Of a stretch of 10,967 nucleotides of DNA, positions 1,206 to 9,422 are shown in pieces. The stretch is from Actinomycetes bacterium (GTDB lineage: Bacteria; Actinomycetota; Acidimicrobiia; Acidimicrobiales; Acidimicrobiaceae). Below the pieces are notes generated by a model. It was not told the origin of the DNA. It saw only the letters and a program-made list of their open reading frames with translations, and made no database searches. Each line of letters opens with the position of its first letter. Position 1 is the first letter of the stretch. Position numbers and translations under genes: made by a program. The stretch lies in assembly GCA_021823385.1 (NCBI GenBank), contig JAKAOC010000030.1:1-10967 (forward strand). The letters run 5' to 3'.

Positions 1206-2468
1206 TTGATCGACGCCGATTTTCAGCCAACACCCCTCCCGGAAGTGCTTCACGGCGCCCATCGGCACCTGCCGATCGCGGCGAACGCCGCCGCATTGCT
1301 CAGGGCGGCTTCGAATTCCACCTTGGGACGGCTATCGGTGATAATGCGCCCAGGCCTCTCGGTCCTCGGCCTCGGTGCGACGGCGGCCGAGCTCACGACC
1401 GAACCGGCGGGATTCCGCAGCCGCCTCAATAAGGCGCTGTCCGCCAGCGGCACCGGTGCCCACGGCAGCTGCCTGTTCGGCTTGGTGCCCTTCGACCCGG
1501 CGACCCTGCCCAGCATTCTCGTCCTTCCCAAGGTTGTCTTGCGAACTGCCGGCCAGAGCGTCCTGGTATCCGCGGTTGCCGCAACCGCGGAGGAAGCGGC
1601 ATCCCTCCTGGAGCAGGGATGCGCCATCGCAGCCACGGCGGAGCGCCTCTCCGGCATTGATGAAACCTCGCCGCAGGCCGGAGATCTTCACTTCACGGAA
1701 AGCGAAGACGCCTGGCTGGCCAAGGCGGAGCGGGCTATTGCCATGATCCGCTCCGGCCGGTTCGAAAAGCTCGTGCTGTCGCGACGCGCCCGTGTCCGCC
1801 TTCCTCAAGGCATCGACCGCTGCGAATCCCTCGCACGCCTCGCCACGATGTATCCGGGTGCACTTTCCTTCTCGTTCCTGCACCTGTTGGGGGCGACTCC
1901 GGAACTCCTGGTGCGCAAGTCGGGCAACTCCTTCGAGAGCCACCCCCTGGCGGGAACCGCGGCCGCCGGCCATGAGGCCGAGCTCTTGAGAAGCGGCAAG
2001 GACAACCACGAGCACCAGGTGGTCGTCTCCCATATCGAGAGCCGCTTGGCGCCCTACGCCCAGCGCCTGGAGGCTGCCGGGCTGCCGTCGATCACCAGCT
2101 TCGGGCCCATCTGCCACCTCGGCACGCCCATCAAGGGCATCATCGCCGACGGACGAGACGTGTCATCCTTGGAGCTTCTGCTCGCCATACACCCCACTCC
2201 CGCGGTCGCAGGAGTGCCCCAACGCAAGGCGATCGAAGCGATACAGGATATCGAGGACGAGCCGCGCCACTACTACGCCGGCGCCATCGGTTTCGAAGAC
2301 GCCGATGGCGACGGGGAATGGCACCTGGTCATCCGCACCGTGGCCATAGGCGAGGGTGAGGCGGAATTCCAGGCCGGGGTGGGGCTGGTCTCAGAATCCG
2401 AGCCTGAGGCCGAATCCGCCGAAGTGAAGGCCAAACTGGCCTCCATGCGTCCAATCGTCGCCCGCTAG
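1206..2468 (+). CDS. menF: Isochorismate synthase (MenF/EntC family)
   Basis: It converts chorismate to isochorismate, the first committed step of the menaquinone branch. The C-terminal ~250 of 420 residues form the chorismate-binding domain: FEKLVLSRRAR (186-196, with K188 at the general-base position), GATPELLVR (229-237, E233), SHPLAGT (245-251), KDNHEHQVVV (265-274), LLLAIHPTPAVAGVP (324-338), YAGAIGFED (357-365) and the Mg-binding tail GVGLVSESEP with downstream E403. The first ~160 residues are the variable N-terminal part of the family. The start is a TTG with AAGGGA (1192-1197) 8 nt upstream; the next in-frame ATG would remove 46 residues. Only 13 bp separate it from menG, so they are likely one operon. 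A siderophore (EntC) role is possible in principle, but menG next door favours menaquinone. The stop codon shares CTAG with the opposing gene's stop. Confidence 0.92.
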   Translation: MIDADFQPTPLPEVLHGAHRHLPIAANAAALLRAASNSTLGRLSVIMRPGLSVLGLGATAAELTTEPAGFRSRLNKALSASGTGAHGSCLFGLVPFDPATLPSILVLPKVVLRTAGQSVLVSAVAATAEEAASLLEQGCAIAATAERLSGIDETSPQAGDLHFTESEDAWLAKAERAIAMIRSGRFEKLVLSRRARVRLPQGIDRCESLARLATMYPGALSFSFLHLLGATPELLVRKSGNSFESHPLAGTAAAGHEAELLRSGKDNHEHQVVVSHIESRLAPYAQRLEAAGLPSITSFGPICHLGTPIKGIIADGRDVSSLELLLAIHPTPAVAGVPQRKAIEAIQDIEDEPRHYYAGAIGFEDADGDGEWHLVIRTVAIGEGEAEFQAGVGLVSESEPEAESAEVKAKLASMRPIVAR

Positions 2469-3691
2469 CCGTCTACATAGAGCTGGCCGTTCGAACCTTC
2501 CGCTATGGGTATGGGGGTCAGCCCGGTCGCGGCCGGGCCGTTCAGCACCGCGCCCGTCAGGGCATTGAAGGCCGAGCCGTGGCATGGGCACACAAAACGG
2601 TCGCTTCCCGCGTACTGCACAGTGCAGCCCGCGTGGGGACAGATAGCCGAAAAAGCCACGAACTTGGCGGTGCTCGGGTGAAGGACGTAGGCGGGCTCAC
2701 CAGAAGCCGGATCGGTGAAGGAGGCGACTTGCCCGACCGGCACCGCGGTGGCCGGACCGACGGCGGTGCCTTTGGGAGGCGGGCCGCCGGTAGTGGGCGC
2801 ACTGGTGGTCGGCGGAGCCGATGCCCCTGGAGCCGCGGTGGTGGCAGGCGAGGTGGTCGGCGGCGGGTCCTGCGTGGAGGAAGTGGAGCTGGCAAGGGAG
2901 TCCGACAGCGCCTTGGGGGCCTGGTAGAGGATCCGGCCTATCCCCGCGCTGAGCGTGCCCAGAACCACCGCGGTGCCTCCTGCCACGCCCACTGTGCCGG
3001 CCCTCACCAAGAAGCGCCGTCTTTCGGGGTCATAGACCGGCGTCGCAGCCCGCTGGGAGCGCGGCTGGCCAAGCTCGATAAAGCCATTTAGCACCGGGCA
3101 GGAGGCGACCTGGCATATCGCACGCCCGTTTGCACGGCATCGGCCCGCTTCGTGGTGCCCGCACACCCTGGTGATCGTCCCGAAGTCGATTCCCACCGTC
3201 GTGCCGAGTGGCGCGATTATGCCTAGCTTCCGCTTCACATTCGCCTCCAGAGAGGCCACCTGGCCATCGCCGAAAATGAGCAGGGGTGTCCAGGCGAAGA
3301 CAAAGACGATGTCGGAGCCGATGTAATAGGGGTGGGAATGGAAGGAGACCGCGAGGAAGAGCATGAAGGAGATCATGATGCCCCCCAGCGCGGCCAGGCG
3401 GGTGAAGACGCCGAGCAGCACTCCGACACCAACCGCCAGCTCTCCGAGGGCGATGATCAGCCCGAAGACGACCGGTGCATGAGACGCAATCCCAAGGAGC
3501 AGGTGAATGGGGCTACGCAGCTGGTAGGCGCGAATCTGTGCCTCGATGGAGGCTGGATTCGAAGCGTTGAAGAAGCCGGGGTTGGCAAGCTTCTGAAGGC
3601 CTGCAAACGTAAAGGTGAATCCCAGGAACAGGCGCAAGGGAAGCAACATCCAACCTGGACTCTTGCGCAAGGACTCAGTAATACGCGCCAA
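2465..3691 (-). CDS. DoxD/DoxX membrane domain fused to Rieske [2Fe-2S] domain
   Basis: This 408-residue predicted redox membrane protein reads in order: a DoxD/DoxX four-helix domain (about 15-141, PLRLFLGFTFTFAGLQKL at 18-35, SHPYYIGSDIVFVFAW at 119-134); a cysteine cluster C177, C185, C193, C198 with H179/H180; a twin-arginine stretch ERRRFLV (223-229) leading a glycine-rich membrane helix (about 231-255); a Pro/Thr/Ser/Ala linker (264-315); and a C-terminal Rieske domain with CPHAGC (351-356) and CPCHGS (368-373), giving ligands C351, H353, C368, H371 and disulfide C356-C370. DoxD is the small subunit of thiosulfate:quinone oxidoreductase, so quinone reduction is a reasonable inference; the substrate is unknown. 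I chose the TTG start because GGAGG (3697-3701) lies 5 nt upstream. An in-frame GTG at 3713-3715 would add 8 residues, and an ATG at 3647-3649 would trim 14. An open frame continues to 4456, but that part overlaps mobA and is not coding. Confidence 0.85.
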   Translation of the reverse strand: MARITESLRKSPGWMLLPLRLFLGFTFTFAGLQKLANPGFFNASNPASIEAQIRAYQLRSPIHLLLGIASHAPVVFGLIIALGELAVGVGVLLGVFTRLAALGGIMISFMLFLAVSFHSHPYYIGSDIVFVFAWTPLLIFGDGQVASLEANVKRKLGIIAPLGTTVGIDFGTITRVCGHHEAGRCRANGRAICQVASCPVLNGFIELGQPRSQRAATPVYDPERRRFLVRAGTVGVAGGTAVVLGTLSAGIGRILYQAPKALSDSLASSTSSTQDPPPTTSPATTAAPGASAPPTTSAPTTGGPPPKGTAVGPATAVPVGQVASFTDPASGEPAYVLHPSTAKFVAFSAICPHAGCTVQYAGSDRFVCPCHGSAFNALTGAVLNGPAATGLTPIPIAEGSNGQLYVDG

Positions 3692-3696
3692 GGCAC

Positions 3697-3701
3697 CCTC
3701 C
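3697..3701 (-). promoter_or_regulatory. Ribosome binding site deciding the DoxD-Rieske start
   Basis: GGAGG on the minus strand sits 5 nt before TTG 3691. The alternative GTG at 3715 has no recognisable Shine-Dalgarno sequence. The predicted -10 at 3720-3725 would put transcription start near 3713, after the GTG codon begins, which also favours the TTG. Confidence 0.5.
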
Positions 3702-3719
3702 CAACTCGGCTTCACAACG

Positions 3720-3749
3720 AATATAGGAGCGCTCGCCTCTCTTTGGCAG
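3720..3749 (-). promoter_or_regulatory. Putative promoter of the DoxD-Rieske gene
   Basis: On the minus strand CTGCCA (3749-3744) and TATATT (3725-3720) are separated by 18 bp, matching four and five of six bases of the general -35/-10 consensus. It lies in the ~190-bp divergent gap shared with mobA. No equally clear promoter for mobA is seen in the same gap. Confidence 0.4.
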
Positions 3750-3904
3750 TCTGGCACCCCAAGCTGGGGCGGCGCAACTCTCAGGCGGCTTTCAGGGCCG
3801 CAGCCACCGATGTCGGAGACGCTCCTCGCTACGTCATTCGGCGCACGTCGGCCGGGCGGATGGACCGGAAGGGAGCGTGGCGGCATAGGTTGGGGGAGGT
3901 GACG

Positions 3905-4510
3905 ATGGAGGTGGAGCCCTTGTACGCGCTGCTGCTGACCGGTGGGCGCTCCTCCCGCTTTCCCGGCGACAAGCTGCGTGCGAAGCTCGCCGGCGGGACG
4001 CTCGTCGAACACGTGGTGAACGCGCTCGAAGACGCGGGAATCATGTCCTTCGAGATCGGGCCGGGATACACACCGCTGACGAGGATAGAGGGGACCGAGC
4101 GCCGCGATCCGCTCACGGCCGTCGGCGCCGGTTGGCGCGGCGTGGCTAATCTCCTGGACCGTCTTCCGAGCGCAATGCTGGTCGTCTCGGGCGACTTGGG
4201 GAACATCAATTCCGCAACCCTTTCGTTCCTGGCCCGCTTCCCGGGCACGGCCTCGGTGGTCCCTTTCGACGGCTCCTATCAGCCTCTCTGTGCGCGCTGG
4301 TCGCGCGCGGCCCTCGATCTTGCCGCCCAGCTCGGAGGAGGCGATCGCCCGCACGCGGTGCGAGCGGCGTTGGACGGGGGGCAGGTAACCTGGCGCGACA
4401 GCCGATGGGCCTCCGAAGGTTTCCTCTCTCCATTCTTCGACGTGGATACGGTCCAAGACCTGGAGAGACTGGAAAGATGGAGGGGACAGAGGGGAAAGGA
4501 GCCGAAATGA
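3905..4510 (+). CDS. mobA: Molybdenum cofactor guanylyltransferase-like protein (MobA family)
   Basis: A 201-residue NTP-transferase of the MobA type, which attaches a nucleotide (GMP for MobA) to molybdopterin in the cytoplasm. The N-terminal nucleotide-binding signature LTGGRSSRFPGDK (11-23) corresponds to the family's LAGGxSxRMGxDK. VVSGDLGN (93-100) sits where the metal-binding Asp motif (usually CDMP) is expected, with D97 retained. QPLCARW (126-132) and the C-terminal FDVDTVQDLERLE (178-190) also match the family pattern. The ATG has GGGGGAGG (3892-3899) 5 nt upstream; an in-frame GTG lies 6 nt before it. The open frame extends back to 3332, but that stretch lies antisense to the DoxD-Rieske gene. 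Its stop overlaps the fdhD start (ATGA), so the pair is coupled. Odd: the Met-Gly of the P-loop-like motif is Phe-Pro-Gly and the CDMP motif is altered, so it may use a related nucleotide or substrate. Confidence 0.82.
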   Translation: MEVEPLYALLLTGGRSSRFPGDKLRAKLAGGTLVEHVVNALEDAGIMSFEIGPGYTPLTRIEGTERRDPLTAVGAGWRGVANLLDRLPSAMLVVSGDLGNINSATLSFLARFPGTASVVPFDGSYQPLCARWSRAALDLAAQLGGGDRPHAVRAALDGGQVTWRDSRWASEGFLSPFFDVDTVQDLERLERWRGQRGKEPK

Positions 4511-6774: not shown

Positions 6775-7638
6775 TCATACCACTTCTTCCTCCGCCGCCT
6801 CGACCAGGCGCGAAGCGGCAACCGAGATTACCAGAGCGGCCAGCGCCATGGCGGCCAGGTTGGTCGCCAAAAAGGCGCCTCCAAAGCGGCTCGATACAGC
6901 TTCGTGCAGTATGGCCACGCCCATCAGCATGGCCACGGTCGGCTCCAGCACGGTGATGACGGGCATGGTAACCGAGAGCGGCGACGACTGGAACGCGGAC
7001 TGCGTAAGTACGAGATCGATCGCGCCTACCGCGACCAGAGCGTAAAGGGGCCAAGAGTCGAGGGACCCCAAGAAACCGTCGATCGAGACCGAGTTGGCTG
7101 CCGCTTTGATCACAAAAGTCGCCACCCCGTGCAAAAGGCCCACGGAGACCCCCATTGCCACGCCCCTTGACCTCCCCTTCAGGCCCGCGACGAGCCACTT
7201 GAAGGCAAAGAAGCCCGCGACGACCACCACCCCTATGACCACTCCCCAGGTGGCGGACGGAACCGTGCTGGTGGAGGTGATGTTGGTGGTCAAAAGGAAG
7301 ACGGCCAGGGCGGCGGCGGAAAGGAGCGAGAGGGCGGCGACGCGGCCGAAACCGCGACGCGCACCGAACACGGCCTCCAGCACCAGCGTGGAGGTCAGTC
7401 CAAAGGCAAGGATGGGCTGCACGAGCAGAAGCGATCCGTCCTTGAGCGCGAGGAACTGGGCGACAAAGGCCAAGAGGTCCAGCGCGACGCCTATGATCCA
7501 AATGGGCCTTTTTACAAGACGCGATAGCAGAGAGAGCTTGAGCGCTGAGGTTGCCGGAGCCTTCTGGGCCTCTCGGTGCTGGACAAACGCAGCTAGCGAG
7601 AAGAGGACGGCTGCGCAGATAGCCAGAAGATAAACCAT
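6775..7638 (-). CDS. DMT-superfamily transporter (EamA/NIPA-like)
   Basis: A 287-residue integral membrane protein with about nine or ten hydrophobic helices and short charged loops, the drug/metabolite transporter layout. Helix 1 begins at residue 2; the loop QHREAQKAP (20-28) and the helix-3 motif LLVQPILAFGLTST (71-84) resemble NIPA/EamA-type actinobacterial proteins. A second half contains SAFQSSPLSVTMPVITVLEP and a long hydrophobic stretch after it, consistent with the internal duplication of the superfamily. The substrate (metabolite, Mg2+ or other) is unknown. The ATG start is 29 bp from the divergent glycosyltransferase start, with no clear Shine-Dalgarno sequence. The acidic end EAAEEEVV is followed closely by the hydrolase gene, so they probably share a transcript. 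Confidence 0.87.
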   Translation of the reverse strand: MVYLLAICAAVLFSLAAFVQHREAQKAPATSALKLSLLSRLVKRPIWIIGVALDLLAFVAQFLALKDGSLLLVQPILAFGLTSTLVLEAVFGARRGFGRVAALSLLSAAALAVFLLTTNITSTSTVPSATWGVVIGVVVVAGFFAFKWLVAGLKGRSRGVAMGVSVGLLHGVATFVIKAAANSVSIDGFLGSLDSWPLYALVAVGAIDLVLTQSAFQSSPLSVTMPVITVLEPTVAMLMGVAILHEAVSSRFGGAFLATNLAAMALAALVISVAASRLVEAAEEEVV

Positions 7639-7667: not shown

Positions 7668-9422
7668 ATGTCCAAACGCGTGCTGCTCGTCTCCGCCCGC
7701 ATGGGAGCGGGCCACGACGGCGCAGCCAAAGAGTTGGCGCGGCTCCTCGGCGAGAGGGGCTACGAAGTTGAGATCAGGGATTTCCTCGACGCTGCTCCCG
7801 TGGTCGGGCGATTCCTCGAACGAACCTATGAGCTGCAGCTCGATCACGCTCCTTGGAGCTACGAGGCACTGTTCAGGCTGTTCGCCACATTCCGTCCGAT
7901 CAAGCCGCCCATCGTCACCCTCTTTTACCTGATCTTCTTCCGGCGCATGCGCCGGTGGGTGAAGGAGTACGGCGCTGACGCGGTCATTACCACCTACCCA
8001 TTTGCCTCGCTGGTGCTGGGGCGGGCCCGCCGCGCGCTCATTCGGCCACTGAAGATCCCCGCTTACACCTTCCTCACCGACTTCAGCGTGCACACGATGT
8101 GGGTCGACGAAGGCGTCGACACCTACCTGGCCGTGCACAACATCTCCGTCGCCCAGGTGGAAAAGCTGGTCGGCAAGACCCCCGTCGTCACCGGACCGGC
8201 CGTGGCCGAGGCATTTCGAAAAGCCGGCGCCCTGGACCGGGCCATGGCCCGCGCCAAATTCGGGATTCCGGCCGACAAGACCAGCGCACTGATCGTGGCC
8301 GGGAGCTGGGGCGTTGGCGACCTGCGCGACACGCTTCTCTCCTTGGGCGCGAGCGACGACATCTTCCCGGTGGTGGTCTGCGGGCGCAATGAGGCGTTGA
8401 GAGCCAGCCTCTCCCGGGTGGGAATCGGCCTGGTTATCGGCTGGACCGACCAGATGCCCTCTCTGATGCGTGCCTGCGACGTCATGATCCAGAACGCAGG
8501 CGGGCTGACCGCGCTGGAGGCTTTTGCCACCGAGGTTCCGGTGATCTCGTACAACCCCATCAAGGGCCACGGCCTGCGCAACGTGATGGAGATGGAAGCA
8601 GCCGGCGTCTCCCTCTGGGCCAGGACGAGGGCGGAGTTGATCGAGACGGTGCACGAACTCGGCGCCAATCCGGAATTGACGACGCGCCGAGCCGCCGGGG
8701 TCTTTCACGCCGACCCGGGCGCGGCGCTCGAGGATGCTCTGATCATCGGCGAGATGCGCGCGCGTGGCCGCAACCTGGGCCGCCGCCGGCCCGCCGGCGT
8801 GGCCCTCCGGTTCGCAGCCTGGGCGATCGCCGCCATCACCGCCCTCAACATCACCGTGAACGCCGCCACCCAGCAGATCAACGTGGACAAGGCGGCGCTG
8901 AAGACGCCCTTCGCCTATGCACTGGTCGAACTGGGGAACCAGGACTTCTCCGATCCACAGGTGCTGGCCACCATGTCACGGCTCGGCATCGGGGCCGTGG
9001 TTACCGGACCCCTTGCCCAGCAGTACCCGGCCGACCTCGCCGAACTGCAGGCCGGCGGGATAACGATCCTGAACGGCGGCTGGCCCATGAACTCGGGTAT
9101 CCGGCTGTTCGCCCCCATCGAGGCCGCAACCAAGACGGCGCGCCTTATCGCAGAGGAGACGGGACTCACCCAGGTCACCTACGCGCCGCAGGGAATGGTG
9201 AACTCGGCGGATCTCGCCTGGGCCTCCATTGCGCATCAGGCGCTGGTCAAGCCGGTGATGATCGAAAAGACAACGGGCTTCGTCGTGCATTCCGGCGATG
9301 CCTACGAAATCGATGCCGCCAACATGAGCCCGGCCGACCTGCTGAGCGAGATCTCCTGGCTTACCCAAACGCTCGGCCAGGACCACTTCACCCTTCTCCC
9401 CTCATCCGCTCTCGGCAACTAG
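7668..9422 (+). CDS. MGDG-synthase-like glycosyltransferase fused to a decayed NodB (deacetylase-like) domain
   Basis: 584 residues. Part 1 (about 1-365) is a GT-B glycosyltransferase of the MGDG synthase/UgtP type: GAGHDGAA (13-20) at the N-terminal nucleotide loop, ADAVITTYPF (103-112), TFLTDFSVHTMWVDEG (134-149), IVAGSWGVGD (209-218), and a donor site MIQNAGGLTALEAF (273-286) with PVISYNPIKGHG (291-302). Such enzymes add a sugar to diacylglycerol or a similar lipid at the cytoplasmic face. Part 2 is a basic stretch (364-374) and one membrane helix (about 378-398), which by positive-inside puts the rest outside. Part 3 (about 412-584) aligns along its length with the polysaccharide deacetylase encoded next, but lacks the catalytic Asp pair and the zinc histidines. 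Transcription may be leaderless; no strong Shine-Dalgarno sequence precedes ATG 7668. The lipid acceptor and sugar are not determinable from sequence. Confidence 0.87.
   Translation: MSKRVLLVSARMGAGHDGAAKELARLLGERGYEVEIRDFLDAAPVVGRFLERTYELQLDHAPWSYEALFRLFATFRPIKPPIVTLFYLIFFRRMRRWVKEYGADAVITTYPFASLVLGRARRALIRPLKIPAYTFLTDFSVHTMWVDEGVDTYLAVHNISVAQVEKLVGKTPVVTGPAVAEAFRKAGALDRAMARAKFGIPADKTSALIVAGSWGVGDLRDTLLSLGASDDIFPVVVCGRNEALRASLSRVGIGLVIGWTDQMPSLMRACDVMIQNAGGLTALEAFATEVPVISYNPIKGHGLRNVMEMEAAGVSLWARTRAELIETVHELGANPELTTRRAAGVFHADPGAALEDALIIGEMRARGRNLGRRRPAGVALRFAAWAIAAITALNITVNAATQQINVDKAALKTPFAYALVELGNQDFSDPQVLATMSRLGIGAVVTGPLAQQYPADLAELQAGGITILNGGWPMNSGIRLFAPIEAATKTARLIAEETGLTQVTYAPQGMVNSADLAWASIAHQALVKPVMIEKTTGFVVHSGDAYEIDAANMSPADLLSEISWLTQTLGQDHFTLLPSSALGN

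Follow-up and report, generated by a model that had tools for sequence, protein, structure and literature searches.

A predicted NodB-fold pseudo-enzyme domain fused to a glycosyltransferase and encoded beside an intact CE4 deacetylase in Acidimicrobiales

The window, i.e. the whole stretch of 10,967 nucleotides of Acidimicrobiaceae DNA analysed in this study, carries a glycosyltransferase (GT) gene that is followed on the same strand by the gene for a CE4 polysaccharide deacetylase and preceded, in divergent orientation, by the gene for a DMT family transporter (Table 1). The DMT and GT genes are arranged head-to-head with a very short divergent spacing, as only 29 nt lie between their start codons. 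An AI-2E family transporter gene (PF01594; 10139-10915, minus strand) faces the CE4 gene, and many loci of this family show this convergent arrangement. At 2465-4456 on the minus strand, one open frame of 663 residues carries a DoxX/DoxD region and then a Rieske domain.

Table 1. Positions of the genes, domains and residues at the locus. Residue numbers refer to the GT protein unless stated otherwise.
Feature	Position	Strand	Basis or remark
DMT family transporter, candidate flippase	6775..7638	-	NCBIfam NF038012, 85.2 bits (cut-off 50)
GT, 584 aa	7668..9422	+	Open reading frame; catalytic part of MGDG_synth type (residues 1 to about 358), followed by a single membrane helix and the pseudo-NodB domain
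Predicted membrane helix, residues about 377-398	8796..8861	+	Kyte-Doolittle; basic stretch before it
Predicted pseudo-NodB (CE4-fold) domain, residues 401-584 (184 residues)	8868..9419	+	
N469-G470-G471	9072..9080	+	End of strand 467-471; G470 at the place of the first zinc His; 177-row alignment, profile register
P507	9186..9188	+	First Pro of the RPPYG equivalent; 171/177 rows
D515 and H523	9210..9236	+	Family-specific conserved pair; D515 173/177, H523 145/177, both 142/177
D549	9312..9314	+	Aligns with H197, the late His of the CE4; of 177 rows, 124 have Asp and 34 have Asn
CE4 deacetylase, 233 residues	9427..10128	+	Intact motifs; PF01522 104.7 bits; begins 4 nt past the GT stop

The N-terminal part of the GT matches PF06925 (MGDG_synth) over the cut-off (3.9e-13), and the protein is thus an MGDG-synthase-type glycosyltransferase like the one of the HexSDF locus discussed below; its top NCBIfam model, PRK13609 (diglucosyl-diacylglycerol synthase), reached 140.6 bits, far under the cut-off of 500. 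This catalytic part is shared with the PF06925 or UgtP-type processive glycosyltransferases, to which the GT adds a membrane helix and a C-terminal domain (CTD). The initial annotation had placed a basic stretch and one membrane helix between the two parts, and a single hydrophobic stretch was indeed found there, with the best 19-residue Kyte-Doolittle window starting at residue 377. The 15 residues ahead of the helix carry a greater net positive charge than the 15 residues following it in 146 of 155 homologues (mean +3.6 versus 0). As membrane proteins follow the positive-inside rule, this pattern predicts that the GT part lies inside and the CTD outside the cell, which supports the topology that had been proposed.

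The CTD had been described as aligning with the deacetylase encoded next door over nearly its full length, and the coordinates and motif strings cited for this were found where they had been placed. However, the pairwise alignment is weak by itself: its local score was reached by 49 of 1000 shuffled sequences and its global score by 6 of 1000. The homology is settled by profile comparison instead, since hhalign aligned 22 CTDs with 17 neighbouring CE4s over 164 columns at an E-value of 2.3e-5 (probability 76). The predicted structure of the CTD is a NodB-type distorted beta/alpha barrel, in keeping with the barrel that the initial annotation had anticipated. Its best sequence-profile matches in the PDB are to PdaA of Bacillus subtilis (1ny1 and 1w17), with E about 0.07, which is not significant alone. 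PdaA is an active deacetylase; it is free-standing, whereas the CTD is fused to the GT, and the relevant strand ends with Asn-His in PdaA but with Asn-Gly in the CTD family.

A significant match to a CE4 profile was thus obtained at the level of the family and not for the window protein alone, and neither of the two outcomes that the initial annotation had named as refuting (a fold other than NodB, no significant profile match) was observed. A search of the window GT protein with PF01522 gave no match, and this model matched only one of the 22 CTDs, with E 0.12. In relatives, the CTDs of P0055, P0086 and P0034 scored over the Pfam gathering score (29.8, 25.9 and 24.4 bits), and that of P0084 stayed under it (18.2 bits); these four proteins had been picked for a prior match to Pfam or to our in-house CE4 profile, which matched 11 of 122 proteins with E-values scaled to this 122-protein database. 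Two warnings for annotation arise: the window CTD receives no CE4 name from Pfam, and three of the four scanned relatives are named Polysacc_deac_1 despite a CTD devoid of catalytic residues. A match of PG_isomerase_N to the CTD (E 0.002-0.03), which fell short of the cut-off, and matches of Mur_ligase, UPF0253, ObcA_N and X-Tfes_XVIPCD to one of the 22 CTDs each were taken as chance.

The fate of the five CE4 motifs (MT1 to MT5) was followed in an alignment of 177 CTD rows (170 distinct), consisting of 55 genome loci and 122 protein-search rows whose species partly overlap; the 120 proteins listed in the protein search are the best of 1612 scored against a GT plus CTD profile, and are no measure of the share of GTs that carry a CTD. 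The two Asp residues of MT1 (catalytic base and metal ligand) are absent, with Asp at position 421 or 422 in none of the 177 rows, as expected from the replaced DDG that had been noted; position 421, the catalytic-Asp place, is Arg in 121 rows and Glu in the window protein. No row has His at 469-471, where the first of the two metal-binding His residues of MT2 would lie, and the column of the second (474) is His in 19 of 177 rows and Met in the window. Both zinc histidines are hence replaced in the window protein, as claimed, but by profile alignment H102 of the CE4 corresponds to G470 and H106 to M474, rather than to N469 and P473; two profile alignments agree on G470, and N469 was dropped as a lost zinc ligand. 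Similarly, the Arg of RPPYG (MT3) is lost, with Arg at 505 or 506 in 0/177 rows and the following Pro kept (P507), although its place is taken by A506 and not by Y505. The Asp/Trp stretch (MT4) is deleted, as reported for the W..DW motif, and CE4 residues 164-176, including WGRDW, remain unpartnered in the profile alignment. The late catalytic His of MT5 (H197 of the CE4) aligns with D549, a position at which 158 of the 177 rows carry Asp or Asn, with no His among the residues listed for this column. The statement that a late histidine, H541, is the only one to survive proved wrong, because the H541 column is His in just 14 of 177 rows; this incidental residue also occupies a different place in the alignment from that of the catalytic His. 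These results support the prediction that the CTD is a NodB (CE4) domain devoid of metal-binding and catalytic residues, i.e. a pseudo-enzyme. The initial annotation was therefore partly confirmed: its main point holds, but several of its residue assignments do not. Its interpretation is partly supported as well, in that a pseudo-enzyme is indicated, for which binding of a glycan or scaffolding of the active deacetylase would be possible roles.

The CTD family conserves a set of residues of its own. G471 is present in 177 of 177 rows, G470 in 173 and N469 in 159, and P507, D515, H523 and D549 are kept in most rows (Table 1). In the model, D515 is part of the first helical turn of 513-521 and H523 comes just past the end of this helix, while P507 follows a one-residue strand at 505 and D549 ends strand 545-549. 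As modelled, the conserved residues are at the C-terminal strand ends, which is the former active-site face, where NodB enzymes bind metal and substrate, and we read the set as a pocket probably rebuilt for binding. H523, which is at the far helix end and off the active-site mouth in the model, may be structural. In six pairs of four close genomes, dN/dS was 0.07-0.12 for the CTD, 0.06-0.11 for the CE4 and 0.03-0.04 for the GT part, ratios that are rough because dS amounts to 0.7-1.5 in five of the six pairs. The CTD is under purifying selection and is not eroding.

The neighbouring CE4 keeps the residues that the CTD lacks: D51, D52, H102, H106, R140, D170, W171 and H197 are invariant in 17 of 17 aligned neighbours. 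Its top NCBIfam matches, NodB and PdaB, are both below their cut-offs. To survey linkage, we used 57 loci, one per genome, in which the GT and CTD share one open frame; adjacency could be tested in 55 of them, and the other two (G007 and G280, with 221 and 103 nt of downstream DNA) were set aside as having too little sequence. The CTD fusion and the deacetylase are mostly kept together, and an adjacent deacetylase gene is a feature that the loci share with HexSDF: a CE4 gene follows on the same strand in 53 of the 55 loci, within 132 nt in 51 of them and farther off in two (1.6 kb in G002 and 4.9 kb in G010). In G002, a 241-residue open frame (L165:3028-3753) is found between the GT and the CE4. 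The remaining two loci (G097 and G147) show no CE4 downstream within the DNA at hand, and G147 has one on another contig. CE4s of the same subfamily were also found with no such GT alongside (G050, G063, G138, G094, G147 and G362). The link between CTD and CE4 is thus not strict.

Each of six Acidimicrobiaceae genomes searched yielded a single PF01522 gene and a single PF06925 gene, so that the only CE4 found adjoins the only MGDG-type GT found, which is the bearer of the dead domain. The window GT is the sole PF06925 gene found in its own genome (82.75% complete), and the one PF01522 gene of that genome is split over two contig ends. In the assembly, these are the ends of contigs C67 and C151; the window runs past C67, and the window and the assembly have therefore been joined differently.

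Within the order, 39 of 298 genomes gave a CTD match, or 38 when G288, whose match is a plain CE4, is subtracted, and one of these has only a fragment. Fragments and partial frames comprise 72 residues at a contig end in G112, a 197-residue frame lacking the GT part in G227 and a CTD in a contig-end frame lacking the GT in G023; these three genomes and G288 are all outside the 57 loci. In a phylum sample of 296 genomes, six matched: two from outside the order (G409 and G498, family f99) carry a CTD that has the NGG motif and is encoded next to a CE4, and the matches in G352 and G566 are plain CE4s. Many Acidimicrobiales thus have the CTD, as does at least one further family of actinobacteria. 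In two genomes of family f77 (G405 and G415; GTs at L143:1967-3724 and L144:1994-3805), a GT with a helix has a degenerate, weakly matching tail, which lacks NGG, and is located beside a CE4; these tails possibly represent a second degeneration of the same kind.

Seventeen GTs lacking the CTD were also listed, some of which were fetched for their CE4, and their counts give no unbiased rate. A CE4 is directly downstream of six of them (G067, G116, G077, G081, G103 and, outside the order, G335), and these six GTs end soon past the catalytic part, i.e. the helix and the CTD are absent together. Two others are the f77 proteins with a weak tail and a CE4, three have a CE4 placed otherwise (G043, G047 and G064), and six have none (G011, a fragment; G012; G050; two in G055; and G097). 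The GT-CE4 pair is a wider unit than the GT with a CTD, and such cases show that a GT and a CE4 can be paired without a CTD. In a tree of 53 rows, 17 CTDs group together (99/99) and 32 CE4s form a separate branch (100/100), with four CTDs from f99 and f77 in no resolved place. This fits a single origin for the 17 CTDs. Duplication of the adjacent CE4 as the source of the CTD was considered and not retained; the tree identifies no donor.

As to the candidate flippase, Pfam gave no match on the window DMT protein at 0.001, and NCBIfam DMT_1 matched 15 of 15 aligned members. With a search range of 400 nt, a divergent DMT gene was found upstream of the GT in 40 of the 57 loci, always within 136 nt, and it was missing from that range in 17, one of which is cut at a contig end. 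SMR-type transporters belong to the DMT superfamily, and some of them reportedly carry glycolipids.

By analogy, the DMT/GT/CE4 locus resembles loci for the synthesis of amino-glycolipids, and the location of the dead domain beside the one intact deacetylase of its family that the genome was found to contain suggests that both serve the same membrane-lipid pathway. From what was computed (fold, lost catalytic residues, charge pattern, selection, own conserved site and linkage), we infer the substrate, its flipping and its binding. The GT would most likely add an N-acetylated sugar to a membrane lipid at the inner face; the glycolipid would cross the membrane, possibly via the divergently encoded DMT transporter; the neighbouring CE4 would remove the acetyl group outside, yielding a cationic amino-glycolipid; and the pseudo-NodB domain would bind the headgroup once it has been flipped and pass it to the CE4, or dock with the CE4. 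This order (adding the sugar inside, flipping, deacetylating outside) is drawn by analogy with HexSDF, GpgSDF and SMR-type transporters. The outside position of the CE4 is less certain owing to its weak N-terminal hydrophobic stretch, the hydropathy of which is at least 1.2 in 24 of 32 CE4s and at least 1.6 in five. We give an even chance to the reading that the CTD is a repurposed, non-catalytic binding domain outside the cell, with the GT adding sugar to lipid inside and the CE4 deacetylating outside. A more specific proposal, which we put forward tentatively and hold to be somewhat doubtful, is that the GT reaches through the membrane so that its CTD recognises the flipped product and hands it to the cell's single CE4, thereby coupling synthesis to de-N-acetylation.

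Part of the evidence would also suit a CTD that is purely a docking scaffold, forming a pseudoenzyme-enzyme pair with the neighbouring CE4 and binding no substrate itself. Such a role would agree with the CE4 gene that follows in nearly all testable loci, with the neighbour being the only PF01522 gene found in all six genomes searched and with the fold common to both partners. However, conservation is concentrated at the former active-site mouth, and G147 and G097 have the CTD but no adjacent CE4, so we consider this role unlikely. It is also conceivable that the conserved residues N469, D515 and D549, perhaps together with H523, perform a new, metal-independent catalysis, as the first two are kept in 159 and 173 of 177 rows and are situated around the former active site according to the secondary structure of the model. 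This seems improbable to us, given that H523 is past the far helix end from the barrel mouth, that D549 is replaced by Asn in 34 rows, and that no known catalytic arrangement was recognised.

The GT-CE4 pair might also modify a cell-wall polymer or other glycan instead of a membrane lipid, in which case the CTD would bind that polymer. CE4 enzymes take a wide range of substrates, according to the part of the source available (PMC10967932), and the NodB and PdaB matches of the neighbour, both below cut-off, would be compatible with a polymer. Nevertheless, MGDG_synth, the family of the GT, glycosylates lipids, and the characterised locus nearest in composition is described as yielding a glycolipid (PMC10128005); we judge a polymer substrate to be distinctly unlikely. 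That the CTD is the neutral relic of a fused deacetylase gene is disfavoured and highly improbable. The loss of the catalytic Asp pair, the first zinc His and the Arg in every row, and the existence of GT-CE4 pairs without a CTD, would be expected of a relic, but its low dN/dS, the near-invariant residues of its own and the open frames in the loci would not.

If the tentative proposal that the CTD recognises the flipped product and hands it on is true, a product-sensing pseudoenzyme would have been built into a glycosyltransferase and kept in many Acidimicrobiales. Glycosylation inside and deacetylation outside must be joined across the membrane, and a dead copy of the fold of the second enzyme, carried by the first enzyme on the predicted outer side, offers a compact system for testing such coupling. 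It also suggests that acidophilic Acidimicrobiaceae may make a cationic surface lipid.

Inactive or probably inactive members of the CE4 family are known: BA3943 (7bkf, 6hpa and 6hm9), BA0150 (4m1b), which has been called catalytically inert, and 2vyo, called probably inactive. None of the three is described as part of a glycosyltransferase; compared with them, the window CTD has all five motifs altered or deleted and another conserved set in place. The word "glycosyltransferase" does not occur in the main text of PMC10967932 on CE4 pseudoenzymes, and the available part of PMC13254593 describes no fusion of an inactive deacetylase with a glycosyltransferase. Our literature search for a glycosyltransferase fused to an inactive polysaccharide deacetylase, which covered its sources in part, returned no description of such a fusion, and the search for an MGDG synthase joined with a polysaccharide deacetylase in actinobacteria, or for an aminoglycolipid in Acidimicrobiia, found no paper. 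Hence, CE4 pseudoenzymes are known, and their placement inside a glycolipid-type GT is not described in the literature searched, as far as its available parts go. NDST1, another possible precedent for a helper domain without catalytic function, was discarded, its domain being Rossmann-like in the portion of the source available (PMC10864358).

Two bacterial systems can be compared with the locus from the available parts of the respective papers. In Pseudomonas aeruginosa GpgSDF, an amino-sugar lipid arises from a GlcNAc lipid through the action of a glycosyltransferase and a deacetylase (PMC12713373). The likeness is in a GT and deacetylase pair acting on a lipid; the difference is that GpgS has a family-4 glycosyltransferase annotation and GpgD is assigned to COG3233, the two proteins being predicted to be cytoplasmic (PMC12713373). 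Among characterised loci, the nearest in composition is HexSDF of Clostridioides difficile, in which HexS (annotated as MGDG synthase), HexD (polysaccharide deacetylase) and HexF (MprF-like) are needed for aminohexosyl-hexosyl-diradylglycerol (PMC10128005). Its authors propose glycosylation, flipping and then deacetylation on the outer side, with localisation and some steps left undetermined there; they also report that the product can be made without HexF and allow for an action of HexD inside the cell (PMC10128005), points that, like the predicted cytoplasmic location of GpgS and GpgD, speak against the pathway proposed here. As described, HexS is not mentioned to carry a pseudo-NodB domain, a comparison that refers to the description and not to the HexS sequence (PMC10128005), and HexF is MprF-like, whereas the flanking membrane protein of the window locus is of the DMT family. 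What the two loci have in common, on this account, is an MGDG-synthase-type GT and a polysaccharide deacetylase, along with a putative lipid flippase, for which the DMT protein is the candidate in the window locus.
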